This document shows positions 7,956-33,481 of a stretch of 64,000 nt of DNA, in pieces. Below the pieces are notes generated by a model. It was given only the letters and a program-made list of their open reading frames with translations. It was not told the DNA's origin and searched no databases. This stretch comes from Thermobaculum terrenum ATCC BAA-798. GTDB taxonomy: Bacteria > Chloroflexota > Chloroflexia > Thermobaculales > Thermobaculaceae. Positions within the stretch are counted from its first letter, which is position 1. Every line of letters begins with the position of its first letter. The translations under genes were made by a program, and so were the position numbers. The stretch lies in the NCBI RefSeq assembly GCF_000025005.1, contig NC_013526.1, positions 992,001 to 1,056,000 of the forward strand, read 5' to 3'.

Positions 7956-9440
7956 TCACCTCCCCAAGGGTTCTTGCTGGCTGCGCTGCCTGGCCAGGTA
8001 GGCGGCGTACAGCCTCGACAGGCTGTCCAGGCGCGCAAGACGCGCCAGCACCACAGAGAAGCCCGCATAGATCCAGAGCACCGAGCTGCTGTCCATGTAG
8101 TTATGGTAGGCGGAGTTGACGGCATAGAGCACGACTCCCCCTACGCAGCCCGCAGCCAGGCCGCTGATCAGCCTGTCGGAGTGGCCCAGGGCTGACATGT
8201 AGTTCCGGATCATCCCCCAGAAGAGCGCCAGGTAGGCCAGCAGGGCGAATATGCCCCAGGAGGTCCACACGCTGAGGAAGTCGTTGTGAGGTCTCTCCTT
8301 GCCCACGGCGCTGGTCCCCCCGGCAGCGTCGGCGCTAGTGTTGAGCTCATCGACGTACTGGGCCGAGACCTCCTCGAAGTGCTCGTGCCCTATGCCGAGT
8401 ATCGGGTGGTCCATCGCTATGGCGAAGCCCACGTCCCAGAGCGCCTGATGGGAGGCGGCGCTGCGATCGTCCTCGGCCGTCTTGTAGTACCTGGAACCTA
8501 TCAGTCCTGTGCCCCTCAGCAGCTGGAATGCCACCACCGCCAGCAGCACCATCGCCAGGAGCGCTATCCGAACCCTGCCCTTCAGGCACAGTGCCAGAGC
8601 GACCGTGGCGGGCGCGAGCGCGAAGAAGGCCGAGCGGGTGTACGAGAAGTTCAGTCCTCCTACCAGCAGCAGTATCCCAAACAGGGCGAGGATCCTCCTC
8701 CTGCCGACTCCAACCGCGCTCGAGAAGAACACACCCATGAGAGGCATGACGACAAAGGCTATCTGGTTGGCCAGCGTCACGGGGCTGGAGCTGAACCCGA
8801 TCGATCTACCTTTCCAATCCCGCACGGTGTTGGCATCACCCAAGCCGTAGGGAGCAATGCTGGGTGCGTAGTGCTGCAAGATAGAGGCTATCGAGACCAC
8901 CACCGTGATGAGGCAGAGCGCCGTCGCCAGCTTCTTCACGTCCCGCACGGTGGCGACAACCGCTATGATCAGCACCATCGCCAGGAGCTGGGTCGTCTGG
9001 TAGCGGGCGTACTTGATCACGTAGTCGGACTCGGAGTAGAGGGCATTGACCGCAGTGGCGATCACGAGCAGCAGCAGCGCCGGCAGCAGCACCCTGCGGC
9101 AGAGGGGATCCGAGAGAGACACTCGCCTGAGCATGGGCAGCGACACGATGAACCCCAGCAGCACCACTAGCAGCCTGAGGCTCATGCCCAGATCACCTAC
9201 GTAGTAGGAGGAGAGGGTCATCTCCGTGAGCAGTACGGGCATGGCCGCCCACGCGGGGGAATTGAGAACCAGCAGGATGGAGGCTAGGCACAGGCCAAGC
9301 ACCAGGCTGCCCTGCTGCTTGCCGGGGATGGGCAGCACCAGGCTGATGGCCATCGCCGCCAGGACGACCATCAGCAGGATCAGCCTCAGGTTCATTCCTG
9401 AGGCTCGGCGCCCCCTGAGGGCTTCGGTCGCCAGGGTCAT
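7956..9440 (-). CDS. O-antigen ligase/polymerase-like membrane protein
   Basis: A 494-residue polytopic membrane protein with about twelve hydrophobic segments and one large extracytoplasmic loop (residues about 325-385) that contains the O-antigen ligase signature region, GIGHEHFEE followed by GKERPHNDFLSVWTSWGIFALLAYL. The HND motif in this loop is typical of the WaaL/Wzy_C superfamily, which joins or polymerises lipid-linked glycans on the outer face of the membrane. ATG 9440 has GGAGG four bases before it and overlaps the chain-length gene stop. With an ABC-type exporter and a Wzz-like protein in the same locus, whether it polymerises or ligates is open. Confidence 0.85.
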   Translation of the reverse strand: MTLATEALRGRRASGMNLRLILLMVVLAAMAISLVLPIPGKQQGSLVLGLCLASILLVLNSPAWAAMPVLLTEMTLSSYYVGDLGMSLRLLVVLLGFIVSLPMLRRVSLSDPLCRRVLLPALLLLVIATAVNALYSESDYVIKYARYQTTQLLAMVLIIAVVATVRDVKKLATALCLITVVVSIASILQHYAPSIAPYGLGDANTVRDWKGRSIGFSSSPVTLANQIAFVVMPLMGVFFSSAVGVGRRRILALFGILLLVGGLNFSYTRSAFFALAPATVALALCLKGRVRIALLAMVLLAVVAFQLLRGTGLIGSRYYKTAEDDRSAASHQALWDVGFAIAMDHPILGIGHEHFEEVSAQYVDELNTSADAAGGTSAVGKERPHNDFLSVWTSWGIFALLAYLALFWGMIRNYMSALGHSDRLISGLAAGCVGGVVLYAVNSAYHNYMDSSSVLWIYAGFSVVLARLARLDSLSRLYAAYLARQRSQQEPLGR

Positions 9441-10654
9441 CTTTCCTCCGCCTTCACGGCGGCGCTGCCGTTGAGCGCCTCACGAGGCACGCCGGCCCTC
9501 TCTAGCGCCTGGATCAGCTTGTCGACGTCCACGTCGTCCTCGTCCCCATGCTGCCGCTTGCGCCTACGCCTGATGCTGTCTATCAGGAACGCTAGCCCCG
9601 CCATGAGTAATACGCCTCCGGCCAGGCCCAAGAGAAGCATTTTCTTCTTGCTCGTGGCGACTATTGGCGTCGAGGCGTCGCCGTACTGCACGAGGGGTGA
9701 GACGGCGTTGTGTGCGTCAAGCTGCAGCTGAGCATACTGGTTAGTCAGGCTCTGCAGCTGCTGGCTGTAAGCGTCGGCCAGGGCTGTGGACACGGTAGGA
9801 TCCGTGTTGCTAGGTAGTTTCTGGATCTGCACCTGCACGTCTCGCAGCTGCGTGTTCAGGTCATCGATGTTCTTCTGGATGCTCGTTATCTGCTGGATCA
9901 ACGTGTGCTGCCACTGTTGCCTGAGCTGCTGCAGAGTGGTGTCCGTCCCAGCGGAGGGGTTGCCTCTGTCGGCCTCGCGCTGCCTTTGCAACTCTTCCTG
10001 GTAGGACATCTGTAGCTGCAGCAGCCTGCTCTGTGCATCGGCTATCTGCTGCTGCAGGTCCTGCTGCTTCCTCTGCAGCTGGGCGTTGAGCAGCTTGTCC
10101 CGGGTGAAGTTGATCTGGTCCTGCAGCTCCTGCATCCTGGAGTCGAGGTTCTCCCTGGCGCGCTCGTTCACGACCCTGACGGCCACCGCGCTGAAGGAGT
10201 TGGCGATCGTCCTGGCCCTGTTGGGGTCGGGGTCCTTCACGACGACGCGTACGAAGTTGGAGTTGCGCACGGTCGATACGTCGACCTTACCGCTCTGCAG
10301 AGCCACCTGGAGCCGCGCCTGCGACATCGCGATCCCCTTGACTCCCAGGTCCTTGCTGACCTGCTCAAGGACGTAGGGGGAGGACAACTCGGCCGCGAAG
10401 TTCTCGGCCGCCTGCTGGCTCTGGTTGACATCGCTGGTGAGGGTAGCACCAGTCTGCTGCACTTGGATGTAGGCCGTGCTCTGGTAGGGCACAGGGCCGT
10501 AACGCAGGTAGGCCATAGCCGCCAGCCCCCCGAGGATGGCTCCTATAAGCAGCAGCCACCACCACCTGGTGATGAACTCCACGTACGGGTCCCTTCCCTG
10601 GTTAGTGGGAGGCATGAGGGGTATGTAATCATAGGGATAGGTACTACTGGACAA
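9437..10654 (-). CDS. Wzz-type chain-length determinant / polysaccharide co-polymerase
   Basis: A 405-residue inner-membrane protein of the Wzz family, which sets the length of polymerised polysaccharide chains. It has an N-terminal helix ([20 protein letters not shown], residues about 30-50), a long periplasmic part rich in Gln and Leu that is predicted coiled coil (about 165-300), and a second helix near 335-355 ([20 protein letters not shown]) followed by a basic Arg/Lys stretch. There is no tyrosine-kinase domain. The start is a TTG at 10652-10654 with AGGAGG nine bases before; it overlaps the aminotransferase stop by eleven bases. The C-terminal acidic and helical tail ([18 protein letters not shown]) is cytoplasmic. 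Confidence 0.88.
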
Positions 10655-11786
10655 CTGTGCTTACCTCCTGGGCTACAACTCTGCGCAGGCAGTCCGCAAC
10701 GTAGGCCACCTGCACTCCACTCATCTCTGGAAACATCGGCAGGGAGAGTATCCTCCTGGCCACCTGCTCGGTCACTGCCAGGTCGCCGGCCAGCCTCCCC
10801 ACGCCCTTGGCGGCCTTCTGGAGGTGCACGGGGATGGGGTAGTGGATGCCGGTGGACACCCCCCTGCGAGCGAGCACCTCGCGCACCCTGTCCCGCTCAT
10901 CGACCTGGATCACGTAGAGGTGCCAGACATGCTCCACACCGGGACGCACCGTCGGCAGGACCACTGGCAGTTCGCTCAGCACGCGCGCGTACGCCTCCGC
11001 GTGGGCGCGCCTGCGCGCGTTCCAGTCATCGAGGTATTTGAGCTTTACCCTGAGCACGGCCGCCTGGATCTCGTCCAGGCGGGAGTTGACCCCCATCTCC
11101 ACGTGCTCGTACTTGCGCACCGACCCGTGGTCCCGTAGCCTGCGCACGCACTCAGCCAGCGCCTGCGAGTTGGTGGTGACGGCACCCGCATCGCCGTAGG
11201 CGCCGAGGTTCTTCCCCATGTAGAAGCTGAAGGCCGCGGCGTCACCGAAGCTGCCGACCCTGCGCCCCCTGATGGTGGCGCCGTGGGCCTGGCACGCGTC
11301 CTCGATCACCGCCAGGCCGTGCCGATGGGCTATGGGCAGGATGGCGTCCATGTCCGCCGGTTGGCCGTAGAGGTGTACGGGCAGTATCGCCCGCGTGCGT
11401 GGCGTGATGGCGGCCTCGATCTTGGAGGGGTCCATGGTGTAGGTGTCCGGATCCACGTCCACGAACACCGGGATCGCGCCCACGTTGACTATGGCCTCGA
11501 CGGTGGCTATGAAGGTGTGGGAGACGGTGATCACCTCGTCTCCCGGGCCCACGCCACAGGCTCTCAGCGCCAGATAGAGCGCATCCGTGCCGTTGGCGAC
11601 GCCGATAGCGTGCCTGACACCGCAGTAGTCGGCGAACTCCTGCTCGAAGGCGTGCACGTTCGGCCCCAGGAGCAGCTCCATGCTCTCCAGGGCGTCCCTG
11701 ATCGCCTCCAGGACCTCTGCCTCTAGGGACTGGTATTGAGCTCGCAGATCAACGAATGGTACTGCTATCACTGTATCAAGCTCCAT
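10644..11786 (-). CDS. DegT/DnrJ/EryC1/StrS family sugar aminotransferase
   Basis: A 380-residue PLP enzyme that transfers an amino group from glutamate to a keto-sugar nucleotide. The fold-type I core is complete: the cofactor region [17 protein letters not shown] (residues about 60-77), the Asp of [11 protein letters not shown], and [16 protein letters not shown], in which the Lys forms the Schiff base. The substrate-closing loop [18 protein letters not shown] is also present. The Gfo/Idh dehydrogenase upstream could supply the 3-keto substrate, as in WlbA/WlbE-like pathways for 3-amino sugars, and the NeuD-like fusion could acylate the product. ATG 11786 has AAGGAA upstream, and the gap to the E1 beta stop is 19 bases. 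Confidence 0.92.
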
Positions 11787-11805: not shown

Positions 11806-12786
11806 CTAACCCTCTAGGCTGCTCAGGCAGCCCTCAATGATGTCCTCAAGCTGCGGCACGACCCGCGCCTCCAGCGGTCCCGCGGACGGTATGGGGCTGT
11901 CCTTGGCGGCCACGCGGATCATCCTCCCCCCAAGCGCCCCGGCGGTCTCCGCCAGGCGGGAGCACACCTCAGCGCCCACCCCGCCCGTGCCTTCCTCCAC
12001 GCACACGAGCCGGTGGGTGCGCCCAAAGGAGCGGGACAGCGTGGTGACGTCCAGGGGTTTGAGGGTGCGCAGGTCGATCACCTCGCAGCTCACGCCCTCG
12101 GGCTCGAGGACAGCCGCGGCCTCGAGGGCGTGCTCTACCATCCGACCATAGGTCGCGATCGTCACGTCCTCGCCCTTCCTGAGCACCTTGGCGGTGCCCA
12201 GCGGCACCGGCGGTATGCCCTCGGGCACAGGACCCTTCTTGGGGTACAGCAGCTTGTTCTCTATGAACACGACCGGGTTGGGATCCCATATGGCGCTGCG
12301 GAGCAGGCCGCCGGCATCCGCCGGGCTGCTGGGAGCCACCACCTTCAGCCCGGGCACCTGGATGAGCCAGGACTCCAGGCTCTGCGAGTGGCTGGCGCCG
12401 TAGCCCCTACCCGCGCCGGCCGGCGTGCGCACGACTATGGGCACCGAGTACTGGCCGGCGTACATGTAGTGGATCTTGGCCGCGTGGTTGACCAGCTGGT
12501 CCATCGCCAGGGTGATGAAGTCCATGAACATGATCTCCACCACCGGGCGGAGGCCCGTCATGGCCGCGCCCACCCCGACGCCCACGTAGGAGTTCTCGGA
12601 GATGGGCGTGCGGATGACCCTCTCGGGGCCGAACCTCTCCAGGAGGTCGCCGGCTACCCCGAAGGCACCGCCGTTGGCGAAGTCCTCGCCTATGAGGACG
12701 ACCGAGTCGTCGGCCTCCATCTCGCTGCGCAGCACCTCGTACAGCGCATCCTTATAGGACATCTCCATGGTGGCCGGGGCTACCAT
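11806..12786 (-). CDS. 2-oxoacid dehydrogenase E1 component, beta subunit
   Basis: A 326-residue beta subunit of a thiamine-diphosphate 2-oxoacid dehydrogenase (pyruvate/acetoin/branched-chain type). The pyrimidine-binding domain carries the cofactor-activating Glu in [18 protein letters not shown] (near residue 63) and the [19 protein letters not shown] segment; the C-terminal transketolase domain has [14 protein letters not shown] and [12 protein letters not shown]. It overlaps the alpha subunit gene by seven bases. Its setting is unusual: it sits between sugar-modifying genes rather than beside a standard E2 or E3. I infer that E1 decarboxylates a 2-oxoacid and loads the acyl group on the lipoyl domain of the fusion protein at 13787-14884. 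Confidence 0.92.
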
Positions 12787-13790
12787 CGGGCCGCTCCCGT
12801 CAGCACGCCGACCCTGCGAGCTGAGGTCGCGGGCTCGGCTGCAGCGTACACTCCCTCGAGGGCCTCCTCCTCGGCGTAGCGCGCCGCGAGGGCGTGCTCC
12901 ACCGCGAGATCCATCTCCTGTTGCACCTCCCGTTCGATATCGATCAGCAGCATCTCGGGCACGCCCATCTCCAGCAGGTCGCGCCGGAGGTTAGCTATCG
13001 GGTCGCGCCTGGACCACTCCTCGATCTCCTCACGAGGGCGGTACTTGGTGCCGTTGTCGCTCTTGGAGTGACCGCAGAACCTGTAGGTCTTCAGCTCCAG
13101 GAGCGTGGGCCCCCCGCCGGAGCGCGCTCGGTTGATGGCGACCGCGGCCACGTCCCGGACGACCCTCACGTCCATGCCGTCGGCCGTGACGCCCGGTATG
13201 TTGTAGGCTGCCGCCCTGACCGCTACGTCCCGCACGCTCGTGACGTCACAGCTGGGAGTGAACATCGCGTAGCCGTTGTTCTCGCACACGTAGACTATCG
13301 GGAGCTTCCACACGGAGGCCATGTTGAGCGACTCGTGGAAGGTGCCTTGGTTGGCTGCGCCGTCGCCGAAGAAGCACAGCACCACCTGCCCGGTGCGCCT
13401 GTACTTGGCGGTGAGGGCCGCGCCCGTCGCCACGGGGATGCCTCCCCCGGTTATACCGTTGGTGCCCAGGAAGTTGATCTCCTTCACCGCGATGTGCTGG
13501 GAGCCTCCCTTGCCACGGCAGAAGCCCGTCTCGCGCCCGCATATCTCGGCGATGAGCCTGGCTGGGTCGGCCCCCTTGGCTATCAGGTGGCCATGGCCTC
13601 GGTGGGTGCTCACCACGTAGTCCTCGGGCCGGGAGGCCGCGATCACGCCCACGGCGCTCGCCTCCTGCCCTATGGAGAGGTGGGCGGTGCCCATGGTCAG
13701 GCCGCGGCTGAACAGCCAGCCGATCTTCTCCTCACACTTCCTGATGCGCAGCATCTGCTGGTAGTAGCCGATAAGTTCGTCCTTCATCAC
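12780..13790 (-). CDS. 2-oxoacid dehydrogenase E1 component, alpha subunit
   Basis: A 336-residue alpha subunit that binds the diphosphate of thiamine diphosphate and pairs with the beta subunit next door. The GDG-X(about 25)-NN cofactor motif is clear: FFGDGAANQGTFHESLNMAS followed by VCENNGYAM (residues about 140-180). The phosphorylation-loop equivalent FCGHSKSDNGTKYR is also present. Pyruvate, acetoin and branched-chain enzymes share these features, so the substrate is open. The start is a GTG at 13790 (or ATG 13787) with GAGGAG before it, overlapping the stop of the lipoyl fusion gene. Gene order fusion, alpha, beta in one overlapping unit argues that the three proteins work together. 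Confidence 0.92.
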   Translation of the reverse strand: MMKDELIGYYQQMLRIRKCEEKIGWLFSRGLTMGTAHLSIGQEASAVGVIAASRPEDYVVSTHRGHGHLIAKGADPARLIAEICGRETGFCRGKGGSQHIAVKEINFLGTNGITGGGIPVATGAALTAKYRRTGQVVLCFFGDGAANQGTFHESLNMASVWKLPIVYVCENNGYAMFTPSCDVTSVRDVAVRAAAYNIPGVTADGMDVRVVRDVAAVAINRARSGGGPTLLELKTYRFCGHSKSDNGTKYRPREEIEEWSRRDPIANLRRDLLEMGVPEMLLIDIEREVQQEMDLAVEHALAARYAEEEALEGVYAAAEPATSARRVGVLTGAARW

Positions 13791-14884
13791 GCTTCTCCTC
13801 TACGGCTCTCGCCGATCACTTTGGCCGGCACCCCGCTGACCACCACGTCGTCCGGCACGTCGTTCATCACCGCAGCGCCGGGAGCTATGATCACGTTGCG
13901 CCCAACGTTCACGGTGGAGTTGATGGCCGCTCCCACCCCCACCAGGACGTTCTCCCTCAGGGAGACCACTCCGGAGAGCACGCAGCCCGGGGAGAGGTGG
14001 GAGAAGTCCCCCAGGTAGCAGTCGTGGGCCACCACCGCCCCCACGTCGACTATCACCCCCTCGCCTATCGTCGTCCCGGGGCCCACCACTGCGCCGGCCT
14101 CCACCAGCGCACCGTCCCCTATGGTCACGCCCATGCCGACTATGGCCCTGGGATCCACCAGGGGGATGATCCGCAGACCTATCTCCTGGGCGATGCGCCT
14201 GTGCACCCTGCGCCTCACCTCGGAATGGAAGGACAGGGCCACGCCATCCACCTCACCCGAAGCGGCTATGCGGGCCAGCTCATCGAACCCACCGAGCACC
14301 CTGTAGCCTCCAGCTTCCCCGCCCCGCATGTCCGGGTTATCGTCTATGAGCCCCACGACCTCGATGGTGTCCAGGTGGCGGGTGACCTCGAGCAGCTGCT
14401 TGGCCCCCAGGCCAGCACCGTAGATGACGATGCGGGTGCGCGAGGGTTCCGGCGCGGGCGTGGCGGGGAGGGCTCCCCGCTGCCTCAACCTCTCCCTTAT
14501 GGCGCGAGGGTCCAGCTTGCGCGGGGCCTCCTCCGAGGGACTGTCCTGTGGAGCGTGGTGCCAGGACTCGTACACCTGCTCCACGTGGGCCCCTGCGCCC
14601 TGCGGGGAGATGGTGGCGCGCGCCAGGATCTCGGAGATATCCTCTTCCGGGGCGGCTATGACGGCCACGATCTGGTTGACGTCGGCGTATTCGCCTTCCG
14701 GTACCAGGATCTTGCGCAGGACACCTGCCGCCTCCGCCTCCAGCTCGACGTTGACCTTGTCGGTCTCGATCTCGGCCAGAGGCTCACCCGTCACCACGTG
14801 GTCGCCCTCGCGCTTGAGCCAGCGCAGTATCCTGGCCGACTCCATGTTCATGCCGAGCTTGGGCAGGATCACCTCAGTGGCCAT
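13787..14884 (-). CDS. Lipoyl domain fused to NeuD/PglD-like acyltransferase
   Basis: A 365-residue fusion. Residues 1-78 are a biotin/lipoyl carrier domain like that of E2 subunits, with the modified Lys at position 43 in IETDKVNVE. A Pro/Glu-rich linker (about 90-145) follows, then a NeuD/PglD module: a Rossmann-like sugar-nucleotide domain (RIVIYGAGLGAKQLLEV, GLIDDNPD) and a left-handed beta-helix (VTIGDGALVEAGAVVGPG) with VVAHDC, where PglD-type enzymes keep the catalytic His. The normal E2 catalytic domain (DHxxxDG motif) is absent. The carrier and the acyltransferase are thus one chain, in an operon with E1 alpha and beta. I infer that an acyl group made by E1 goes from lipoyl-Lys43 to an amino sugar. 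It overlaps its neighbours by 4 and 11 bases. Confidence 0.88.
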   Translation of the reverse strand: MATEVILPKLGMNMESARILRWLKREGDHVVTGEPLAEIETDKVNVELEAEAAGVLRKILVPEGEYADVNQIVAVIAAPEEDISEILARATISPQGAGAHVEQVYESWHHAPQDSPSEEAPRKLDPRAIRERLRQRGALPATPAPEPSRTRIVIYGAGLGAKQLLEVTRHLDTIEVVGLIDDNPDMRGGEAGGYRVLGGFDELARIAASGEVDGVALSFHSEVRRRVHRRIAQEIGLRIIPLVDPRAIVGMGVTIGDGALVEAGAVVGPGTTIGEGVIVDVGAVVAHDCYLGDFSHLSPGCVLSGVVSLRENVLVGVGAAINSTVNVGRNVIIAPGAAVMNDVPDDVVVSGVPAKVIGESRRGEA

Positions 14885-15965
14885 GTGCCACCCCCGATAC
14901 GGCCATGCCGTCCTTGCCGGCTCCCACTAGGCGCGAGCCATCGAGGAGGCCCATCAGGGGCTTCCTGACGCCCCCCTCCTGCAGGGAGCGATCGGCCTGC
15001 TCGAGGATGCGGACCACCTGCAGGCCCTCCCTGCCGTCCGTCGTGGGGGTGGTACCGTGGCGGATGGAGCTCACGAAGTGCTCGCACTGCACGGCCAGCG
15101 GCTCTCGGAAGGGCACGTACGGGATGTGCACGCCCCCGTACCTGTACTCCAAGTGGAAGTCGCTGAACTTGTCGGTCACGTAGGTACGCTCGACGCCCTT
15201 GTCGTAGATGCGTATCTTCTCTACGTCCGCTACGTCGTTGCACACGACCATCTTCCTGCTACCGACCACGGTGACGCGCCTTACCTTGCAGGGGTCCAGC
15301 CAGCTCAGGTGCACGTGGGCCAGTATGTTGTGCGGGAAAGCGAACTCCGCGTACACCACGTCGTGCACCCCGGGGCGCACGTGGGCGCTGCCGTGGGCGC
15401 TCACCGACAGCGGCTCCATGCCCAGGATGTACCGCAGGATGGACACGTCATGAGGCGCCAGGTCCCACAGCACGTTGATGTCGGGCTGGAACAGCCCCAG
15501 GTTGAGCCTGGCGGAATCCACGTAGTAGATGTCGCCCAGCTCGCCACTGGCGATGATCTCCCGCAGCGCCTGGATGGCCCCGTTGTACACGAAGGTGTGG
15601 CCCACCATGAGGACCAGGCCCAGGCGATCGGCGATGGACACCAGTTCCTCGGCGTGCTCGGACCTATCGGTCAGGGGCTTCTCCACCATGACGTGCTTGC
15701 CGACGAGCAGGGACTGCCTGGCCAACTTGTAGTGGGTACGTATGGGGGTGGCGATCACCACGGCATCGACATCTGAGGCGAGCATCTCGCCCACGCTTGT
15801 CGTGACCTTGACGCCTGGGTAGTCCCTGTGCACCTTGCCCAACTTGGCCTCATCCAGATCCACTACCCACTCCAGGATGACCCCGGACATCTCAGCGAAG
15901 TTTCTAACGAGTTTGGGCCCCCAGTAACCGAAGCCTACGATACCAACTTTCAGGTCTCCCTCCAT
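14874..15965 (-). CDS. Gfo/Idh/MocA family NAD-dependent sugar dehydrogenase
   Basis: A 363-residue oxidoreductase that probably oxidises a sugar nucleotide at a ring carbon with NAD(P). The N-terminal Rossmann domain begins KVGIVGFGYWGPKLVRNF, and the conserved EKP motif is at VMVEKPLTD (near residue 97). The C-terminal alpha/beta domain includes DLAPHDVSILRYILG, with the His expected to act in catalysis. ATG 15965 is chosen because GGGAGAGAGG precedes it by two bases and the Rossmann fold starts at once; longer upstream reading in this frame has no homology. In WlbA-like pathways this enzyme gives the 3-keto sugar used by a DegT aminotransferase, which is encoded further down this operon. 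Confidence 0.9.
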   Translation of the reverse strand: MEGDLKVGIVGFGYWGPKLVRNFAEMSGVILEWVVDLDEAKLGKVHRDYPGVKVTTSVGEMLASDVDAVVIATPIRTHYKLARQSLLVGKHVMVEKPLTDRSEHAEELVSIADRLGLVLMVGHTFVYNGAIQALREIIASGELGDIYYVDSARLNLGLFQPDINVLWDLAPHDVSILRYILGMEPLSVSAHGSAHVRPGVHDVVYAEFAFPHNILAHVHLSWLDPCKVRRVTVVGSRKMVVCNDVADVEKIRIYDKGVERTYVTDKFSDFHLEYRYGGVHIPYVPFREPLAVQCEHFVSSIRHGTTPTTDGREGLQVVRILEQADRSLQEGGVRKPLMGLLDGSRLVGAGKDGMAVSGVAHGH

Positions 15966-15994: not shown

Positions 15995-16672
15995 CTACCT
16001 GCAATCCCTGGCCAGCAGGACCACCGGCAGGGTCATGAGCAGGATCCACAGGTCCAGCATGAGCCCTCGCCTGCGTACGTACTCTAGGTCCAGGGCCACC
16101 ATCTGCTCGAAGGTAGTCCTGTTGCGGCCCTTGACCTGCCATAGGCCGGTGATGCCCGGCTTGACGGTAAGCCTTCCAAGCTGTTCCGGCTTGTACTGCT
16201 CCACCTCGTATGGGATGGGGGGCCTTGGCCCCACGAGGCTCATCTCCCCTCGCAGCACGTTCCACAGCTGGGGTAGCTCATCGAGGCTGGTGCGTCGCAG
16301 CCACCTGCCGATCCTGGTGACCCTGGGGTCGTTAGGCAGCTTGTAGAGGCCATGCTCATCGCGCAGGCTATCATCCCCCTCGGCAGCCATCAGCGCCAGC
16401 ACGTATTGCTTGTGCAGGGACTGGTCGGCGTCCACGTACATCGTGCGGAACTTGAGGCAGGTGAAGAGCCTGCCGCCCTGGCCGACGCGCTGCTGGCGAA
16501 AGAGCACGGGCCCAGGAGAGTCCAGCTTGATGAGGACGGCGCAGATGAACATCACCGGCGACAGCAGCACGAGCATCAGGACCGCGCCCACCAGGTCAAG
16601 CGCGCGCTTGCAGATGGCGTAAAGCCTCAGGTCACTCCGCTCGAGTAAGGGCAGCTCCAATGCTTCCTGCAT
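15995..16672 (-). CDS. Undecaprenyl-phosphate sugar-1-phosphate transferase
   Basis: A 225-residue initiating enzyme of polysaccharide synthesis that places the first sugar phosphate on undecaprenyl phosphate in the membrane. It is the short form with one N-terminal membrane segment (KRALDLVGAVLMLVLLSPVM, residues about 25-44) and the complete bacterial sugar-transferase core: SPGPVLFRQQRVGQ, LKFRTM, RRTSLDELPQLWNVL, MSLVGPRPP and VKPGITGLWQV. ATG 16672 is chosen over a longer reading to 16852 because GGAGAT sits five bases before it. It is the first gene of the run that continues without large gaps to 5892, so the triple regulatory box at 16755-16782 probably controls the whole operon. Confidence 0.93.
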   Translation of the reverse strand: MQEALELPLLERSDLRLYAICKRALDLVGAVLMLVLLSPVMFICAVLIKLDSPGPVLFRQQRVGQGGRLFTCLKFRTMYVDADQSLHKQYVLALMAAEGDDSLRDEHGLYKLPNDPRVTRIGRWLRRTSLDELPQLWNVLRGEMSLVGPRPPIPYEVEQYKPEQLGRLTVKPGITGLWQVKGRNRTTFEQMVALDLEYVRRRGLMLDLWILLMTLPVVLLARDCR

Positions 16673-16754
16673 ATCAGATCTCCTCGGGACCCTGCACAAC
16701 AGCAAGGGGTTGTGTGAACTAAGGATGATGTTAGAGGCAGGGTGTGAAGCCTCT

Positions 16755-16782
16755 ATTGCGAGAAGGTTACGAAGAGGTTGAG
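16755..16782 (-). promoter_or_regulatory. Triple 11-base-periodic box before polysaccharide operon
   Basis: On the minus strand CTCAAC (16782-16777), CGTAAC (16771-16766) and CGCAAT (16760-16755) follow each other at exactly 11 bases. The box ends about 80 bases before ATG 16672 and abuts the stop codon of the preceding gene. The same three-part pattern occurs at 33387-33414. Confidence 0.6.
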
Positions 16783-24787: not shown

Positions 24788-26113
24788 TCAAGCCTCCAAA
24801 GAGGGCTTTCGCAGGACAGCGATGTACCCTCGTACGGGCTCGCCCCTCTCCAGCCGAAGCGTGCACGCCTCCAGCTCGAGCAGCACCAATCCAGCCCGGG
24901 TGGAGGCCTCCCGCAGGTAGCCCTCGCTGTGCGCATACCTGCCTGCCGCGTGGAGGACGTAGTTGCCGGAGTCGGCGCGCTCGAAGGACGCAGCCACCAC
25001 ACCTCCAGCCCTGATAGCCCTGGATGCGCTGCTGAGTACGGGCAGGAGATCACCGAAGTAGACCAGCACGTCTGCCATTACTATCAGGTCGTAGAGCTCG
25101 TACGTGCCGGCGAGGCACTGCGTGAGCTCGGCGCATATCAGCTCGTCGTAGACCCCACGCTCCCTGGCCCTCTCCAGCATACCCCTGGACAGATCAACTC
25201 CCACCAGCCTGCGGGCAACAGGGCGCAGTAGAGGTCCACAGAGCCCCGTGCCACAGCCAGCATCCAGCACATCCAGCTGCCATGCCCTCGCGCCGAGCCA
25301 GCGCGTCGCCACACCGACCACCAGCTCGGGCGCGCGGTACCTCAGCACCTCGCGCAGCTGGGCATCAAAGCTGGAGGCGAACCTGTCGAAGTGATGGACG
25401 ATGAAGCCGTCCGGCGCCCGCGACGGGGCGTAGCTCCCCTTTAGTGCCTCGAGGATAAAGGGGATCTCGGGGTTGTCGGGGGCGAGGGCGCTGCCGCACT
25501 CCAGCACTCTCAGCGCCTCCGCGGTTCTGCCCTTGACACGGTACACGGTCGCCAGCGTCCAGTGAGCGTCGGAGTAGCTCGGATCGAGCGCCAGGGCGGC
25601 TCGGAAACACTCTCTGGCCTCCAGTAGCCTGCCCAGTGAGCATAGGGCGTTCGCCAGGAAGAAGTACGACCTGGGGCGTTCGAATTCGAGCGCCAAGGAT
25701 CTGCGACAGTGTTGCTCGGCCTCAGCGAATCTTCCCACCTCCTGCAAGGCGCCTCCCAGTGCGCAGTGGGCCTCGCCACACTCTGGGTCTAGCGCTATCG
25801 CCTGCTCAAACGATGCCAGGGAATCTGGGAGCCTACCCAAGTCGTACAGCACCTTCCCCAGGCTGCAGTGTATGGAAGGGCTACCCGGATCGCAGCTCAA
25901 CGCCTCTCGGAGGAAGCCCTCCGCAAGCTCCAGTTTACCCGTCCTGTGCATGATGCGCCCCAGCAGGTGCAGTGCCTGCGGCCTGGAACCTCGGTGCAGC
26001 AGGGCGCGGCGACAGGCTTCCTCAGCTTCGACGTACCTGTGCTCCCCGTACAGCCTGCGGGCCTCATCGAGCTCGTCTAACTCTGGCCTCGTACACATCA
26101 CACCGTCCTCCAC
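24788..26113 (-). CDS. TPR protein with SAM-dependent methyltransferase domain
   Basis: A 441-residue fusion. Residues about 10-215 are five to six TPR repeats (for example ALHLLGRIMHRTGKLELAEGFLREALSCDPGSPSIHCSLGKVLYDLG). Residues about 250-435 form a class I methyltransferase: motif I LDVLDAGCGTGLCGPLL, the acidic end of strand 2 VGVDLSRGMLERA, then YDLIVMADVLVYFGDL and the GGVVAASFE strand. The TPR part presumably holds a protein or peptide substrate. It begins four bases after the cyclase 1 stop, so it belongs to the lasso operon and may methylate the precursor. The start is GTG 26113 or ATG 26098; both have GAGG-type sites at proper distance. Confidence 0.85.
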   Translation of the reverse strand: MEDGVMCTRPELDELDEARRLYGEHRYVEAEEACRRALLHRGSRPQALHLLGRIMHRTGKLELAEGFLREALSCDPGSPSIHCSLGKVLYDLGRLPDSLASFEQAIALDPECGEAHCALGGALQEVGRFAEAEQHCRRSLALEFERPRSYFFLANALCSLGRLLEARECFRAALALDPSYSDAHWTLATVYRVKGRTAEALRVLECGSALAPDNPEIPFILEALKGSYAPSRAPDGFIVHHFDRFASSFDAQLREVLRYRAPELVVGVATRWLGARAWQLDVLDAGCGTGLCGPLLRPVARRLVGVDLSRGMLERARERGVYDELICAELTQCLAGTYELYDLIVMADVLVYFGDLLPVLSSASRAIRAGGVVAASFERADSGNYVLHAAGRYAHSEGYLREASTRAGLVLLELEACTLRLERGEPVRGYIAVLRKPSLEA

Positions 26114-26117
26114 AGGC

Positions 26118-28106
26118 TCACCTCGGCCCAGCCCCCAGCATGGCTCGGTCCTGCCAAGGTGGAGGGACCGTCACCAACTGCGGTCTTGGGAGCTCAAGGG
26201 CTCGCAGCCATGTTTCCAGCCCTATGATGTACATCACGTAGAGGAAGTCGGGGCCTCGCTCGCCCGCCCTCATCGCTTGGAGCCTCTGCCAGAACCTCTC
26301 CTGTACCACGTACCCGCGCTCGGCGATCCTGGGGGTGCCACCGGGACCGAACACTGCCTTGTAGTGATGCCAGTTGAGCTCCAGCTCTCGCTCAAAGGCT
26401 GAGGCAAAGTGAGTCTTGGAGGTGCGGGTGCGGATGGTCTCCGGCAGGATGCCCCGCATCGCCCCCCGCAGCAGCCGCTTGGAGCCCGCGTAGAACTCGT
26501 CCGTCTCGGGATGCGGCCGATACTTCACCTCCGGCGGCACCCTCAACAGATACTCGTGCAGCCGCCTGTCCGCATAGGGCTGTGCTACCTGCACGCTCCA
26601 AGGTACAGGATGTACCTCTAGCGGTGGCGGGTACAGCAGGTCATATTCCTCCTGCCTAGCGGGCGAGGAGAAATGCCTGCGGCGTTCAGATTCGAACATT
26701 GCCTCGATCTGCCTGGTACCTAGCTCAACCCTTAGCGCCTGCGGCATCCAGTCAGGCAGCAGCCTCTCCGGCGACTTGGGAGCGGAGCGACGCAGGTGCC
26801 CCAATATGATCCGTCGCTGGAGGGACATCGGGAGCAGAGGCGCCAGGCAGTATAGTAGCAGGATACGGCGCCAAGGATCACTATGTGTCCTTCTATAGGT
26901 CCGCAGGTACAGCAGCAGGTCTCCTACCTTCCCATGGCGGATGAGGGAGTCGAACACCAAAGGAGAGCCCGCAATGCAAGCATCGGCTATATCTCCGGTC
27001 AGGAGCAGCCGCACCCCTGCCGAGGTGACGGTCCCCATGATAAGGTCCCAACCCTCGCTCATGCCCATGTTCGGCGCCACCTGAAAGCCCATCGGCTGGG
27101 GCTGCAGCCTGCCGGCATAACCACCGGGCGGGACATAGTGGGCATCTATGCCATACATCTTCTGTATAGCCTCGATAAGAGGCCTCTCGTCGCACTCCAG
27201 ATCGTCATAGACCGTGCTGAAGGTCGCTATACCCCCGCCCTGCACTCTGCCCGCCGTGTACAGCGTCTGTGCGGTGCAGGCGATGGAGGAGGAGTCCAGG
27301 CCACCACTGAGCAGCACCCCCACAGGCCCCACAGACCTCAACCTGTCCCCCACACACCGCGAGAACACCTCCCACAAGTGCTCCGCATACTCCTCCTCCC
27401 GCCTGTACCGGATCTCCCTCACACCCCCAAGCTCCCAGTAGCGCTCCCTGCGTACCTCGGAGGGCGTCACCACTAACACACATCCCGCCTCTACGGACCA
27501 CACATCCTGATAATAAGTTGCAGCCTCCTGCTTCTCGCTGGAGAGCACGCTGGATGGCAACAGGAAGGTGCGGATCTTCTCCTCGTTGGGCAGCACGGGC
27601 ACTCGCGGGGCCTGCAGCAGCTGCTGGATCTCAGAGGCGGCATAGAATACGCTGCCATCCACCCTGTAGTACAGTTCCCTGCGCCCACTGGTGTCGCGGG
27701 CGCACAGCAGCCTGCGCTCGCGCGGGTCCCAGATGACTACCGCGAAGTCGCCCAGCAGCCTGGGGAAGGCCTCCAACCCCCACTCCTCATAGGCTAGCAG
27801 GACCAGCTCGGCATCGCTGATCGCGGTCGGCGTGAGCACGGATAGCATGTCAAGCAGCTCCCGCCTGTTATCCAACCGCAGGTCGGCCGAGATCGCACAC
27901 CCAGTGCGAGGACTCACCAGGGGCTGCAGATCCAGCTGATCTTCGGGAGTCACTACCATTCTCGCGTGTCCCAGCACTACCTCTCCAAGGAACCTGATCT
28001 GCACGCCATCTGGTCCTCTATAGGGCGCAGCGGCAAGCATCGCGCACGCCTCCAAATGGTCTGGAGCCCCACCATCGCGTCGGAAGATCGCTACCACGCC
28101 GCTCAT
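26118..28106 (-). CDS. Lasso cyclase 1 (asparagine-synthetase-like)
   Basis: A 662-residue AsnB homologue that in lasso clusters adenylates the core Asp/Glu side chain and closes the macrolactam ring. The N-terminal glutaminase-like domain starts MSGVVAIFRRDGG, so the catalytic Cys2 of true asparagine synthetases is replaced by Ser and no ammonia should be made; lasso cyclases often show this. The ATP pyrophosphatase loop is VLLSGGLDSSSIACTA (near residue 265). The C-terminal part has RPHPETDEFYAGSKRLLRGAMRGILPETIR, shared with cyclase 2. ATG 28106 overlaps the kinase stop as ATGA, and GAGGGTGAGG precedes it. Bases 27342-27448 are identical to 30888-30994 in cyclase 2. Confidence 0.9.
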   Translation of the reverse strand: MSGVVAIFRRDGGAPDHLEACAMLAAAPYRGPDGVQIRFLGEVVLGHARMVVTPEDQLDLQPLVSPRTGCAISADLRLDNRRELLDMLSVLTPTAISDAELVLLAYEEWGLEAFPRLLGDFAVVIWDPRERRLLCARDTSGRRELYYRVDGSVFYAASEIQQLLQAPRVPVLPNEEKIRTFLLPSSVLSSEKQEAATYYQDVWSVEAGCVLVVTPSEVRRERYWELGGVREIRYRREEEYAEHLWEVFSRCVGDRLRSVGPVGVLLSGGLDSSSIACTAQTLYTAGRVQGGGIATFSTVYDDLECDERPLIEAIQKMYGIDAHYVPPGGYAGRLQPQPMGFQVAPNMGMSEGWDLIMGTVTSAGVRLLLTGDIADACIAGSPLVFDSLIRHGKVGDLLLYLRTYRRTHSDPWRRILLLYCLAPLLPMSLQRRIILGHLRRSAPKSPERLLPDWMPQALRVELGTRQIEAMFESERRRHFSSPARQEEYDLLYPPPLEVHPVPWSVQVAQPYADRRLHEYLLRVPPEVKYRPHPETDEFYAGSKRLLRGAMRGILPETIRTRTSKTHFASAFERELELNWHHYKAVFGPGGTPRIAERGYVVQERFWQRLQAMRAGERGPDFLYVMYIIGLETWLRALELPRPQLVTVPPPWQDRAMLGAGPR

Positions 28107-29128
28107 GCCTCACCCTCCAGATCCCGTAGGAGCGCTGCGTACACTTTGTCCTGATGCTCGAACCCGCTGGGATAGCTGAGCAGCCTCACTGGCACCCGGC
28201 GGACGACCTCGCTGTAGACAGGCAACAACTGGGCCGCATCCTCGGGCTGCAGGAGCGCTCGCAGCGCCGTGTGCTGGGTGAGTGCAACCAGAGCCGCCCT
28301 GCCCTGCAGGGGCGTGATCACCACATCGTCGCTGCGCCATCGCCCTGGATCGTACCTGTCGAGCAGATAGATGGCCCTTACGCTCGTGGGGAGCTCGCTG
28401 AATGCTCCTGTACCTTCCAGGCTGAGCAGGTGCTTATCGTAGCCAGGTATCAGCGCGTGCAGGCCCTCCTCCCCGCCGAGCACCCTGACGGCAGTGTGCC
28501 GCCAGAGCCTGACTACCGGTACGCCCGGGAAACCCAGGACCCCGGAGGACGAGACCCCCAAGGGCAGGGCGTCGTCGGTGAGCACAGCGTGCCCCCTGAC
28601 CATGAAGGCGCTGAGCATGGTCGTCTTCCCCTGCCCCTTGTCCCCCAGGAACACCGCCGCGCCCCGATCGGTGATGACCGCGCCCGCGTGGAGCACCGGA
28701 CGCCCCAGCCTCTGGACGGCGAACACCCCGACCTGGCCAAGCAGGACGTGCCCCAGGATATCGGCGGGGACATCCCTCTCGGGGTAGACCTCTACTCGTC
28801 TCCGCTCGGGGAGCAGGTGGAACGTCCCGACCGTGTCATGCCAGAGCCAGAGGCCATCCTCGCCCTGGTGCAGGCGCGTGGCCACGCGGCCCTCGTGACA
28901 ACGGCCATAGCAGCGCATCTCGGCGAGCACTGGGCCCTCGAGGGGAGCTAGCCCTCCGCCGTCGCTCGCAAGGACCATCTCCAGCTCCGGCTCCGGTCGG
29001 GGCTCCCCTCGAACGGGAGCTATGGGCAAGGGCACGTCGCTGCGTACCAGGAGACCGTACATGGCGTACAGGTCCGACCCCTGGGGGAAGCTTCCGGGTT
29101 GGTCATCACGGGCGTGGTATCTAATCAA
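28103..29128 (-). CDS. Lasso-cluster HPr-kinase-like kinase 1
   Basis: A 341-residue relative of HPr kinase, the type that in some lasso clusters phosphorylates the C-terminal Ser of the precursor. Visible are VLHAGAVITDRGAAVFLGDKGQGKTTML, whose P-loop is GDKGQGKTT, and VLTDDALPLGV with the DD metal pair. The reading frame extends far upstream without homology; I place the start at TTG 29128, which has AGGAG eight bases before it and gives an N-terminus that aligns with kinase 2 (YGLLVRSDVPLPIAP against HGLRVRSQLELPIPE). The stop overlaps cyclase 1 by four bases. Precursor 1 has a Ser next to last; precursor 2 does not, so the two kinases may not share a target. Confidence 0.82.
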   Translation of the reverse strand: MIRYHARDDQPGSFPQGSDLYAMYGLLVRSDVPLPIAPVRGEPRPEPELEMVLASDGGGLAPLEGPVLAEMRCYGRCHEGRVATRLHQGEDGLWLWHDTVGTFHLLPERRRVEVYPERDVPADILGHVLLGQVGVFAVQRLGRPVLHAGAVITDRGAAVFLGDKGQGKTTMLSAFMVRGHAVLTDDALPLGVSSSGVLGFPGVPVVRLWRHTAVRVLGGEEGLHALIPGYDKHLLSLEGTGAFSELPTSVRAIYLLDRYDPGRWRSDDVVITPLQGRAALVALTQHTALRALLQPEDAAQLLPVYSEVVRRVPVRLLSYPSGFEHQDKVYAALLRDLEGEA

Positions 29129-29332
29129 TAAGAATTCTCCTGCTATAGGCTCTTGAGAGCAAGCATAGTGGGCGTACCTGCAGGATAGGTGGAGCAGCAG
29201 TTGAGGTAAGGTGTCGGACGGCAGGGATGGACAGAGCTCCTTTGGATGCCGTAGAGGTGCCAGGCCATGCGCGCGAGCACCCGCCCCAGTGCTCAGCCTC
29301 CCCCCGGCGATGCCAGCACCCAAAGATGAGAC

Positions 29333-29360
29333 CTCGGCAAGGCCGGTTGACCTTGCCGAG
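29333..29360 (-). terminator. 10-bp hairpin after lasso precursor 2
   Basis: A perfect 10-base stem (CTCGGCAAGG / CCTTGCCGAG) with an 8-base loop begins 29 bases after the precursor 2 stop. On the minus strand it is followed by a short T-rich run (TCATCTTT). It probably ends or attenuates transcription, raising precursor over kinase and cyclase message. The rest of the 261-base gap to the kinase TTG shows no gene; a single CTCAAC (29205-29200) with a weak partner CTCCAC lies in it. Confidence 0.6.
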
Positions 29361-29389
29361 TCACCCGCACCGGACGCCAGTAGTTACGC

Positions 29390-29563
29390 TTAGAAGCGCA
29401 CGCACGCGCCGTACGGCACGTTGTTGGTGCACGTAGGGTTGTTGTTGTCTATGACCAACTGATTGTTGGAGACGACGTAATCGGGCTTGTTGCCGGTTGC
29501 GCCAGCGGTTCTATCTTCTACCCTGCCGTACTCCTTGAGCTCGGGGCTCCTGTACTCCTTCAT
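29390..29563 (-). CDS. Lasso-type RiPP precursor peptide 2
   Basis: A 57-residue peptide. The leader has YRSPELKEYGRVEDRT (residues 4-19), matching YxxPxLxxxGxxxxxT. The core would start at Gly21 as GATGNKPDYV, with Asp28 at core position 8 for an eight-residue ring, the same GxxGNxPDY pattern as precursor 1. The 37-residue core is rich in Asn (DNNNPTCTNN) and has two Cys (core positions 25 and 34) that could form a disulfide, and ends VRF. GGGAGGTGA lies six bases before ATG 29563, a strong ribosome site that rules out the longer reading upstream. It sits right after cyclase 2 and before a hairpin, a typical precursor arrangement. Confidence 0.84.
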   Translation of the reverse strand: MKEYRSPELKEYGRVEDRTAGATGNKPDYVVSNNQLVIDNNNPTCTNNVPYGACVRF

Positions 29564-29687
29564 CCTGCTCACCTCCCTTCCGTGCCAGATATGCTTGGTC
29601 CGGTGCCGCGGCACGCTCGACACCAGGGAAGAAACGATCCTTGCCCCTGTCCGGTGCGGATAGCTGGGCCAAAGATCGGCGTGAGGT

Positions 29688-31652
29688 TCATGTGACCGCC
29701 ACCTCCTGCACGACGGTAAGCCTCTCTCGTGGCTGCTCCAGCGATCGCAGCCACGTCTCTAGCCCCACGAGCTGCATGAGGTAGACCGCATCGGTTCCAC
29801 TGCGGCCGTCCCGCAGCGCCACGAGCCTCTCCCAGAAGAGCCGTGGATCCACGTACCCGCGCTCGGCGATCCTGGGGGTGCCGCCGGGACCGAACGCGGC
29901 CTCGTACGAGCGCCAGCTCGAGGCGAGCTCCGCCGGCAGCACGTCGGCAAACACCGTCTTGGAGGTGCGGGTGCGGATGGGCTCCGGCAGGATGCCCCGC
30001 ATCGCCTGCCGCAGCAGCCGCTTGGAGCCCGCGTAGAACTCGTCCGTCTCGGGATGCGGTCGGTACTTCACCTCCGGGGGCACCCCCAGCAGGTACTCGT
30101 GCAGCCGCCTGTCCGCGTAGGGCAGGGACTGCTCCACCGGCCAGGGCGACGGGAAGCGCAGCACCTCCGGTGGGTACAGCAGCCGCCGCTCCTCTTCCCG
30201 CGCGGGGGAGGAGAAGAGGCGGGTCGCCGTCAGCTGCAGGGACCTGTCGAGTGACCTCGACACCAGGTCATCCCTGATCACGGGGTGGATCCATGTCGGC
30301 AGGAACCTGTCCCACCTGCGGAGGTACTGCCGACGCACGTGCACGGCCAGCAACCTCCTGTGCAGCCTCAGCGGCAGGAGCGGCAGGAGCGTGTGCAGCA
30401 CCAGGATGTTCCGCCAGGAATCCTGCGAGAGGCGACGGTAGGTCCGCATCCGGAAGAGCATCTCACGCCACTGCCCCTTGCGCAGCAGCGAGTCGAACAC
30501 CAGATGGCTCCCGTACACTATGCTATCTCCCACCTGCCCACTGAGCAGCAGGCGCACCCCCGCACGGGTGATCCGCCCGAACAGCTGGTTCCTCGGCTCG
30601 GATATGCTCATGTTGGGTGACTCCCTGAAGCCTGTGGGGGCCAGATCCAGCCTGCCGGCGTAGCTGTCGCTGCGCACGAAATCCACGGGCACGCCACAAG
30701 TATCCCTGATCACCTCGACGAACTCCCTCTCGTCGCAGGACATGCCCTCAAAGAGGGAAGTGAAGCCCCGGATGCCGGGGAACGCGGGGAGCTCGCCCCT
30801 CGTGGCGAGGGCCTGCGCGGTGCAGGCGATGGAGGAGGAGTCCAGGCCACCGCTGAGCAGCACCCCCACGGGCCCTACGCACCTCAGCCTGTCCCCCACA
30901 CACCGCGAGAACACCTCCCACAAGTGCTCCGCATACTCCTCCTCCCGCCTGTACCGGATCTCCCTCACACCCCCAAGCTCCCAGTAGCGCTCCCCGCGCA
31001 CCCCCGAGGACATCACCACCACCACGCCCCCAGCCTCCACCGAGTGAACGCCCTTATAGAAGGTGTCGGCGTACTGCTTCTCGTTGGTGAACATCTCCAT
31101 GGGGGAGAGGAAGTTCCTGATGCGGTCCTCGTTGGGCTCCACGGGTATATCGGAGGCCCGGATGATGGGGTGGATCTCGGAGGCGGCGTAGAACACGCCG
31201 TCGTGCAGGGCGTAGAACAGCTGCCTCTGCCCGCTGGTGTCGCGGGCGCACAGCAGCCTGCGCTCGCGCGGGTCCCAGATGACCACCGCGAAGTCCCCCA
31301 GCAGCTTGGGGAAGGCCTCCAACCCCCACTCCTCGTAGGCCAGCAGTACCAGCTCGGCGTCGGACGGGTCCTGCGAGGGCGGCACGCCCAACAGGGCCAT
31401 CAGCTCGCGCCGGGCGTCCAGCCTGGCGTCCGCGACCAGCATGCAGCCTGTGCGGGGGCTGGCAAGCGGCTGAGACTCCACCGCTTCCTGGGGGGTGACT
31501 ATCAGCCTGGCTATGCCCATCGCCACTTCCCCGCGGGAGGCCGAGGCTACGCCGTCCAGCGCCCGGTAGCGCATAGCGCCCAGCATCACGCCCACCGCAG
31601 CCGATGCCCTGAGTCCGCCACGAAGATCTAATGCCACGGCGATGCCGCTCAC
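29688..31652 (-). CDS. Lasso cyclase 2 (asparagine-synthetase-like)
   Basis: A 654-residue paralogue of cyclase 1, expected to close the ring of precursor 2. It starts at GTG 31652 with GGAGGTGGAGGG in front and overlaps the kinase 2 stop as GTGA. The N-terminus reads VSGIAVALD, so like cyclase 1 it has Ser, not Cys, at position 2. It keeps VLLSGGLDSSSIACTAQ and RPHPETDEFYAGSKRLLRQAMRGILPEPIR. Several stretches are nearly identical in DNA to cyclase 1, including 107 exact bases (30888-30994), while other parts are clearly diverged. The 124-base gap to precursor 2 holds a 12-base palindrome (29603-29614). Confidence 0.9.
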   Translation of the reverse strand: MSGIAVALDLRGGLRASAAVGVMLGAMRYRALDGVASASRGEVAMGIARLIVTPQEAVESQPLASPRTGCMLVADARLDARRELMALLGVPPSQDPSDAELVLLAYEEWGLEAFPKLLGDFAVVIWDPRERRLLCARDTSGQRQLFYALHDGVFYAASEIHPIIRASDIPVEPNEDRIRNFLSPMEMFTNEKQYADTFYKGVHSVEAGGVVVVMSSGVRGERYWELGGVREIRYRREEEYAEHLWEVFSRCVGDRLRCVGPVGVLLSGGLDSSSIACTAQALATRGELPAFPGIRGFTSLFEGMSCDEREFVEVIRDTCGVPVDFVRSDSYAGRLDLAPTGFRESPNMSISEPRNQLFGRITRAGVRLLLSGQVGDSIVYGSHLVFDSLLRKGQWREMLFRMRTYRRLSQDSWRNILVLHTLLPLLPLRLHRRLLAVHVRRQYLRRWDRFLPTWIHPVIRDDLVSRSLDRSLQLTATRLFSSPAREEERRLLYPPEVLRFPSPWPVEQSLPYADRRLHEYLLGVPPEVKYRPHPETDEFYAGSKRLLRQAMRGILPEPIRTRTSKTVFADVLPAELASSWRSYEAAFGPGGTPRIAERGYVDPRLFWERLVALRDGRSGTDAVYLMQLVGLETWLRSLEQPRERLTVVQEVAVT

Positions 31653-32626: not shown

Positions 32627-33056
32627 ACGCCGCCTCCCGGTCGACCCGCCTGGGGCTCGTCATCGGGCTTATGCCCTGCAAGGACCTCCTGTCGTCGTTG
32701 ACGGGCACGCCCGCCAGCTCCACCCACGCATGGGCGCGGAGATCTTCCTCCGCCTTCCACACCCCAAAGCGCAGGCGGCTGGGCAGGCCCTGCCTCCGCA
32801 GCCACATATGCAGCACCAGCGACCGGTGCAGGCACCTTGCGCCCACCGGGCAGATGTGAGCGGCGAGGGCGATCCTTCTAGCGTACCTGCGAGCCAGCCG
32901 CAGGTGCTCCCGTGACACGTCTTGAGGAGGAGCAGCCTCGCTCTCGATCTTGATCAGTATAGGGTCCAGCCCTTCGTGGCTGAGCCGCCGGTCGATGAGG
33001 ATCAGGTCGCTCCAAGCTTTGGCTATCAGCTGCAGGTCTGCAAGCCTAAGCTTCAT
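32616..33056 (-). CDS. Lasso leader peptidase (B2, transglutaminase-like fold)
   Basis: A 146-residue B2-type protease that removes the leader peptide. The catalytic Cys is in CPVGARCLHRSLVLHMWLRR (near residue 76), the His in AHAWVELAG (near 119), and an Asn/Asp in PVNDD follows, the Cys-His-Asp order of bacterial transglutaminase-like lasso proteases. ATG 33056 is used because the family alignment starts there and because it overlaps the PqqD-like gene by 11 bases; the longer frame upstream has no homology. It is the only B2 gene in the window, so it must serve both precursors if both are processed. Confidence 0.9.
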   Translation of the reverse strand: MKLRLADLQLIAKAWSDLILIDRRLSHEGLDPILIKIESEAAPPQDVSREHLRLARRYARRIALAAHICPVGARCLHRSLVLHMWLRRQGLPSRLRFGVWKAEEDLRAHAWVELAGVPVNDDRRSLQGISPMTSPRRVDREAAYDL

Positions 33057-33312: not shown

Positions 33313-33386
33313 CTCGTGCACCTCGTTCTTGGGATGTTCTGGGATGATTCCATGCTTAGAAGGTAATCTCCACCAATTCGGGAAAG

Positions 33387-33414: not shown

Positions 33415-33481
33415 AAAGGTGGCTCGGCGCCGTGCCGCCCCGCGGCCTACCGCTCGCACACCCGCTGGCCCATTGTGAAGA

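Follow-up and report, generated by a model that had tools for sequence, protein, structure and literature searches.

Bacterial sugar N-acylation is held to use acetyl-CoA or acyl-ACP as the donor. The locus described here, found in a 64,000-nucleotide stretch of the Thermobaculum terrenum ATCC BAA-798 genome (henceforth "the window"; contig C2 of genome G000, which consists of two replicons of 2,026,947 and 1,074,634 bases), raises the question of where a nucleotide-sugar N-acyltransferase that is equipped with a lipoyl arm of its own, and encoded right beside a pair of E1 genes, takes its acyl group from, and onto what this group is then passed.

The lipoyl-NeuD protein and its operon

The ORF at 13787-14884 (minus strand) of the window is confirmed to join a lipoyl domain to a complete hexapeptide N-acyltransferase of the NeuD/PglD kind and to lack an E2 catalytic domain, the features of the protein being the following:

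13787..14884 (-): lipoyl-NeuD fusion protein P0001, 365 aa, ATG start
14657..14875 (-): lipoyl domain, residues 4-76 (PF00364, Biotin_lipoyl, 67.5 bits, cut-off 22.1)
14756..14758 (-): Lys43 in IETDKVNVE, predicted lipoylation site
14561..14575 (-): VYESW, residues 104-108, linker motif conserved between P0001 and P0002
13820..14434 (-): NeuD/PglD domain, residues 151-355 (TIGR03570)
14339..14344 (-): Asp181-Asp182, predicted uridine/ribose contacts (Asp35/Asp36 of PglD)
14024..14026 (-): His287 in VVAHDC, predicted general base (His125 of PglD, His142 of Pcryo_0637)

The sequence-only reading, which had described an E2-like protein with a NeuD/PglD domain in place of the catalytic one, a lipoyl domain with Lys43 in IETDKVNVE and an acyltransferase motif VVAHDC, is borne out on these points: Lys43 lies within the PF00364 match, the protein scores above the curated cut-off of the NCBIfam NeuD model TIGR03570 (162.4 bits, cut-off 160.8; P0008 reaches 167.0 bits), Pfam scans found no E2 catalytic domain (PF00198) in the fusions, and His287 takes the position of the NeuD/PglD catalytic histidine. 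The transferase part comprises a PglD_N nucleotide-sugar lobe (PF17836, 25.4 bits, cut-off 23.4) and a left-handed beta helix (Hexapep, PF00132, 56.3 bits); its relatives in the PDB include 4m98, 4ea7 (PerB), 7txp (VioB) and 3bss (PglD), and the nearest solved ones are sugar N-acetyltransferases. In solved relatives, acetyl-CoA sits between trimer subunits, the histidine acts as the base and two aspartates hold the uridine nucleoside (PMC8040287); among the fusions, His287 is conserved in at least 98% and the Asp181/Asp182 pair in 100%.

The peripheral subunit-binding domain (PSBD) of E2s had no Pfam match in the fusions, that of the window included, and the linker profile of fusions from an Anaerolineae-like order (see below) aligns with the PSBD part of canonical E2s at an E-value of about 1e-6. 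VYESW is the conserved stretch of a linker that otherwise varies between P0001 and P0002, and is a possible E1-docking element. A structure prediction of the fusion from a two-sequence alignment had a mean pLDDT of 47, too low for use in a fold search.

The genes flanking that of the fusion are, in minus-strand order:

15995..16852 (-): undecaprenyl-phosphate sugar phosphotransferase (Bac_transf; PF02397, 233 bits; TIGR03025 above cut-off)
14874..15965 (-): Gfo/Idh/MocA oxidoreductase P0006 (PF01408)
12780..13790 (-): E1alpha P0003, thiamine diphosphate 2-oxoacid dehydrogenase (PF00676, 286 bits; TIGR03182, 357 bits)
11806..12786 (-): E1beta P0004 (PF02779/PF02780; NF006667, 355 bits, above the cut-off of 321)
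10644..11786 (-): DegT/DnrJ aminotransferase P0005, close solved relatives including QdtB and WbpE (sugar C3 aminotransferases)
9437..10654 (-): Wzz-like chain-length protein (PF02706)
7956..9440 (-): Wzy/O-antigen-ligase-like membrane protein (PF04932)

The fusion gene lies between those for Gfo/Idh and E1alpha, a glycosyltransferase gene follows the Wzy-like one, and neighbours in the run are separated or overlapped by about 26 nt at most. The overlap of the fusion and both E1 genes within one operon also containing Gfo/Idh and DegT genes, as had been claimed from the sequence, holds: fusion, E1alpha and E1beta are consecutive and joined by 4- and 7-nt ORF overlaps, the Gfo/Idh and fusion ORFs share 11 nt, and DegT begins 19 nt past E1beta. 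The E1alpha contains the GDG..NN motif; the Gfo/Idh protein scores 164.6 bits with the UDP-GlcNAc 3-dehydrogenase model NF040723, below its cut-off of 450. Its gene content, Gfo/Idh and DegT included, marks this as an exopolysaccharide operon; no ACP or NRPS genes were found among the operon genes scanned, and scanning the operon for promoters and terminators gave matches no commoner than in shuffles.

A chance reading frame is excluded for P0001, since it has an orthologue with 69% identity from end to end (P0002, from G002, another genus in this family), as well as about 100 further fusions. In G002, the fusion adjoins the orthologous Gfo/Idh and sugar-transferase genes, and another contig carries E1alpha (76%)-E1beta-DegT-Wzz-Wzy orthologues in the order seen in the window, so that the operon appears to have been split in two with every part retained. 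Five other members of the family that were searched have E1s of the canonical type only, at about 43% identity or less.

The T. terrenum genome encodes dihydrolipoamide dehydrogenase (above cut-off) and lipA, as well as three canonical PF00198 E2s, which are located on the other replicon (two of them clustered with E1s of their own) and rule out that the fusion is the main E2 of this genome. A second lipA (lipoyl synthase) is found in the window at 33482-34393 (minus strand), about 19 kb from the fusion; it is 99.7% identical over 927 bp to the lipA that neighbours canonical PDH/BCKDH genes on the genome's other replicon. The identity covers essentially the gene alone and marks a recent gene-sized duplication.

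Also on the minus strand of the window is a cluster resembling those of the lasso-peptide type (16783-17978 and 22464-33603), with two asparagine-synthase-like ORFs (26118-28106 and 29688-31730), HPr-kinase-like and PqqD-like ORFs, a transglutaminase-like ORF (32616-33275) and an ABC transporter, all judged by eye from the translations save for one PqqD profile match. Two Tat-signal proteins consisting mostly of Ser-Pro repeats (17957-18757 and 18827-19771, minus strand), near which a SPINDLY/O-GlcNAc-transferase-like TPR protein is encoded (20861-22450; all three likewise judged by eye), are possible candidates for O-glycosylated surface proteins.

The same gene order elsewhere in Chloroflexota

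A two-sequence profile run against 400 Chloroflexota genomes recovered three distant fusions, each encoded directly downstream of E1alpha-E1beta, and a five-sequence profile run against 301 genomes of one order (Anaerolineae-like) recovered about 100 full-length ones (families f18, f50, f97-f101 and f105). Comparison of about 115 genomic contexts revealed a nearly invariant gene order E1alpha-E1beta-(lipoyl-NeuD), and the check for the same fusion and gene order in other genomes, suggested by the sequence-only reading, yielded about 100 genomes, nearly always arranged in this way. In L117, L119 and L169, a single ORF encoding both E1alpha and E1beta precedes the lipoyl-NeuD gene. None of the plasmid and phage records searched with P0001, or of the plasmid records searched with P0008, covered 80% of the query, a viral-contig scan did not find relatives of the fusion, and full-text searches of the literature library used returned no report of it. 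L128 (7980-11070, minus strand) carries a third kind of E1alpha-E1beta-(lipoyl-NeuD) cassette, highly divergent and close to Gfo/Idh-like genes; its NeuD forms a long branch apart from other NeuDs and may have a separate origin.

A DegT gene, a PglC-like sugar transferase gene or both are found no more than 6 kb away in 53 of 89 cassettes, DegT mostly directly downstream and the PglC-like gene often upstream, resulting in clusters of the type PglC-E1alpha-E1beta-(lipoyl-PglD)-PglE-like. The flanks of f18 and most f50 cassettes are devoid of sugar genes, and in f18 the genes found close to the cassette include those for citrate synthase and malate dehydrogenase. The f18 cassettes could be taken to mean that, at least in families with no sugar genes nearby, the acceptor is some other small amine or an amino acid, a notion that we deem very unlikely, given that the NeuD domain has its closest solved relatives among sugar N-acetyltransferases and that the window operon is of the exopolysaccharide type, complete with Gfo/Idh and DegT.

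The lipoyl lysine, the adjacent E1 genes and the GxPA loop

Among the loci for which 3 kb or more of sequence upstream was available (with FETTK motifs taken as lysine-bearing), E1beta is adjacent in 77 of the 78 with an intact lipoyl lysine (both E1 genes in 74), and E1 is adjacent in 0 of the 24 in which the lysine or the whole lipoyl domain is missing (Fisher's exact p = 2e-22, a statistic that ignores relatedness, the independent events numbering only 3-4). In three E1-less proteins, a lipoyl fold can still be recognised but the lysine has been replaced (ESRRGS in L146, ESRHER in L148 and ISGTEE in L155), and their N-terminal domains are taken to be decayed lipoyl domains. As the E1-less genes are nested inside the lipoyl clade of the NeuD tree, the loss is secondary; independent changes of the lipoyl trait that are paralleled by E1 number three with good support, and four in the best tree. 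The E1-less NeuD sometimes occupies the very same PglC-NeuD-DegT slot. Genome-wide searches of tested genomes of the Anaerolineae-like order found a cassette-type E1alpha (>300 bits) in all of the lipoyl-bearing ones except for G449, a genome bin whose fusion (L144) has its lysine intact, and in none of the E1-less ones, the best matches in which are canonical and score <200 bits. In G678, G538 and G531, E1beta alone is adjacent and E1alpha is encoded elsewhere in the genome. As a separate observation, at the alignment position corresponding to residue 314 of the window protein every lipoyl-fused NeuD has Leu and every E1-less sister has Gln (100% in both groups), a difference possibly linked to a change of acyl donor.

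Trees of E1alpha and E1beta that took in canonical PDH/BCKDH, acetoin-type and NRPS-linked E1s (the latter recognised by gene content, e.g., NBC_01136, where ACP-E1alpha-E1beta-E2 adjoins NRPS genes, as described for SclQ1-4) group the cassette E1s of the Anaerolineae-like order with the Qnc/Ren-type C2-transfer E1s (100/100) and place the window E1s among those of the PDH/acetoin type, outside the Qnc/Scl/Ren-type lineage; a clade uniting window and cassette E1s is rejected (AU p = 7e-6 for E1alpha and 4e-7 for E1beta). The trees, then, indicate that the lipoyl-armed NeuD is paired with two different E1s, meaning that there were either two origins of the architecture or an exchange of E1 in one lineage. 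Taken together with the adjacency counts, the co-losses and the recurring sugar-nucleotide genes, these two lineages lend strong support to E1, the lipoyl lysine and the NeuD domain being functionally coupled.

Two rival explanations revolve around CoA. The C-terminal GxPA loop of the NeuD domain, tied to CoA binding in relatives, is retained in the window protein, which may for this reason still accept acetyl-CoA, and is replaced in 86 of 90 Anaerolineae-like fusions. As the E1-less sisters have likewise lost it, its absence does not single out the lipoyl users, and with the window copy keeping the loop, its loss is ruled out as proof of CoA independence. The fusion might, firstly, be an ordinary acetyl-CoA-dependent NeuD whose lipoyl domain serves assembly or regulation, with the E1 serving another E2 in trans; the loop of the window copy would fit, as would the persistence of the NeuD domain without a lipoyl domain in E1-less sisters. 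Such a NeuD would, however, hardly be expected to lose its lipoyl lysine together with the E1 genes and otherwise keep near-perfect adjacency to them, or to be paired with two E1 lineages, and no canonical E2 gene was seen beside the cassette E1 genes, all of which renders this explanation unlikely. Similarly improbable, in our estimate, is an alternative E2, loaded by E1, in which the hexapeptide domain would move the acyl group to CoA, so as to provide acyl-CoA to the cell at large or to the NeuD active site: hexapeptide acyltransferases do bind CoA, the window copy has its loop, and the f18 cassette lies near central-metabolism genes instead of sugar ones, but canonical PF00198 E2s are already present in genomes with the fusion (three in G000, two in G165 and four in G249), the UDP-sugar lobe and the Asp pair are conserved, DegT/PglC neighbours are common, and NeuD alone can fill the PglC-NeuD-DegT slot once E1 and the lipoyl domain are gone.

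Acyl donor, acyl group and acceptor

The reading we favour, at a probability of roughly three in four, is that the E1 loads the fused lipoyl arm and that a nucleotide amino sugar then receives the acyl group on its amine directly from this arm. The fusion would be an E2-like acyl carrier with a NeuD/PglD-type nucleotide-sugar N-acyltransferase in place of the usual acyltransferase domain. E1alpha/E1beta, with thiamine diphosphate, would generate the acyl unit and load it by reductive acylation onto the lipoyl group of Lys43, the lipoylation of which we infer; the arm would then swing into the active site between the beta-helix subunits of a NeuD trimer, where acyl-lipoamide would substitute for acetyl-CoA and His287 would deprotonate the amino group of a UDP- (or dTDP-) linked amino sugar, supplied by the Gfo/Idh and DegT enzymes of the operon, for the acyl group to be transferred. 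The dihydrolipoamide would be re-oxidised by the genome's dihydrolipoamide dehydrogenase, and the acylated sugar would go on to the sugar transferase encoded nearby and to machinery of the Wzx/Wzy type. Because the enzyme carries its own lipoyl arm and travels with the E1 pair that would load it, the arm itself, rather than acyl-CoA, is probably the direct source of the acyl group.

The earlier claim that an acyl group derived from a 2-oxoacid is handed from lipoamide to an amino sugar without acyl-CoA is, therefore, upheld as far as the coupling of E1, lipoyl lysine and NeuD goes, whereas direct CoA-free transfer is what we infer. The E1 of the window is of the pyruvate/acetoin type, for which reason the acyl group here is probably plain acetyl, with pyruvate or acetoin as the simplest guess for its origin. 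In the Anaerolineae-like order, the E1 is kin to the Qnc/Ren type, the C2 unit of which is proposed to originate from a ketose phosphate (PMC6335953) instead of a 2-oxoacid, and the acyl group would possibly be glycolyl. As to the acceptor, the Gfo/Idh gene and a DegT with QdtB and WbpE among its close solved relatives suggest a 3-amino sugar in the window, and the DegT of the Anaerolineae-like order, nearer to PseC/LegC, points to a 4-amino sugar there. A broader proposition, that N-acyl sugars are made free of CoA, with acyl-lipoamide as the direct donor, by a system assembled at least twice in Chloroflexota, once around a pyruvate/acetoin-type E1 (acetyl) and once around a ketose-phosphate-type E1 (N-glycolyl), is put forward tentatively, with the odds somewhat against it.

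The closest parallel in mechanism is found in quinocarcin and scleric acid biosynthesis (QncN/QncL/QncM and SclQ1-4), where an E1-like thiamine diphosphate enzyme loads a lipoyl domain and a C2 glycolic unit is passed on (PMC6335953), as well as in RenH/RenI: an E1-like enzyme, a lipoyl domain and a dedicated biosynthetic acyl route are shared. Those systems, however, have an ordinary E2-type catalytic domain (the NBC_01136 E2; RenI, a lipoyl plus E2-type protein encoded after RenH) and an ACP acceptor, in contrast to the left-handed beta-helix sugar N-acyltransferase seen here, and their E1 lineage includes the Anaerolineae-like cassette E1 and excludes that of the window; the fusion would work like these lipoyl-transfer systems while standing outside their membership. 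By family it is a NeuD with a new donor arrangement, sharing with NeuD, PglD, PerB and VioB (TIGR03570) the whole catalytic domain, the catalytic histidine and the UDP-binding Asp pair (PMC8040287), although the characterised relatives are acetyl-CoA users without a lipoyl domain, and this one has a lipoyl arm and co-encoded E1alpha/E1beta. With the E2s of PDH and acetoin dehydrogenase it has the N-terminal lipoyl domain and E1alpha/E1beta partners in common (the Anaerolineae-like fusions possibly also a PSBD-like linker), but not the PF00198 core, and Pfam shows no PSBD in the window protein. The window's Gfo/Idh, aminotransferase and hexapeptide acyltransferase recall WbpB/WbpE/WbpD-type (C3) pathways, and the cassettes' aminotransferase, PglD-like acyltransferase and PglC-like transferase recall PglF/PglE/PglD-type (C4) ones, the difference from both being an acyl donor that appears to be lipoyl-borne and to come from a dedicated E1.

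If the favoured reading is true, a dedicated E1 with a lipoyl arm would constitute a third donor system for nucleotide-sugar acyltransferases, and the fusion would be a rare case of an E2-like protein having its catalytic core swapped for an unrelated fold. The E1-less sisters with their decayed lipoyl domains offer a natural control set for a change of acyl donor, and the system as a whole would provide a handle on unusual acyl groups (e.g., glycolyl) in bacterial glycans.
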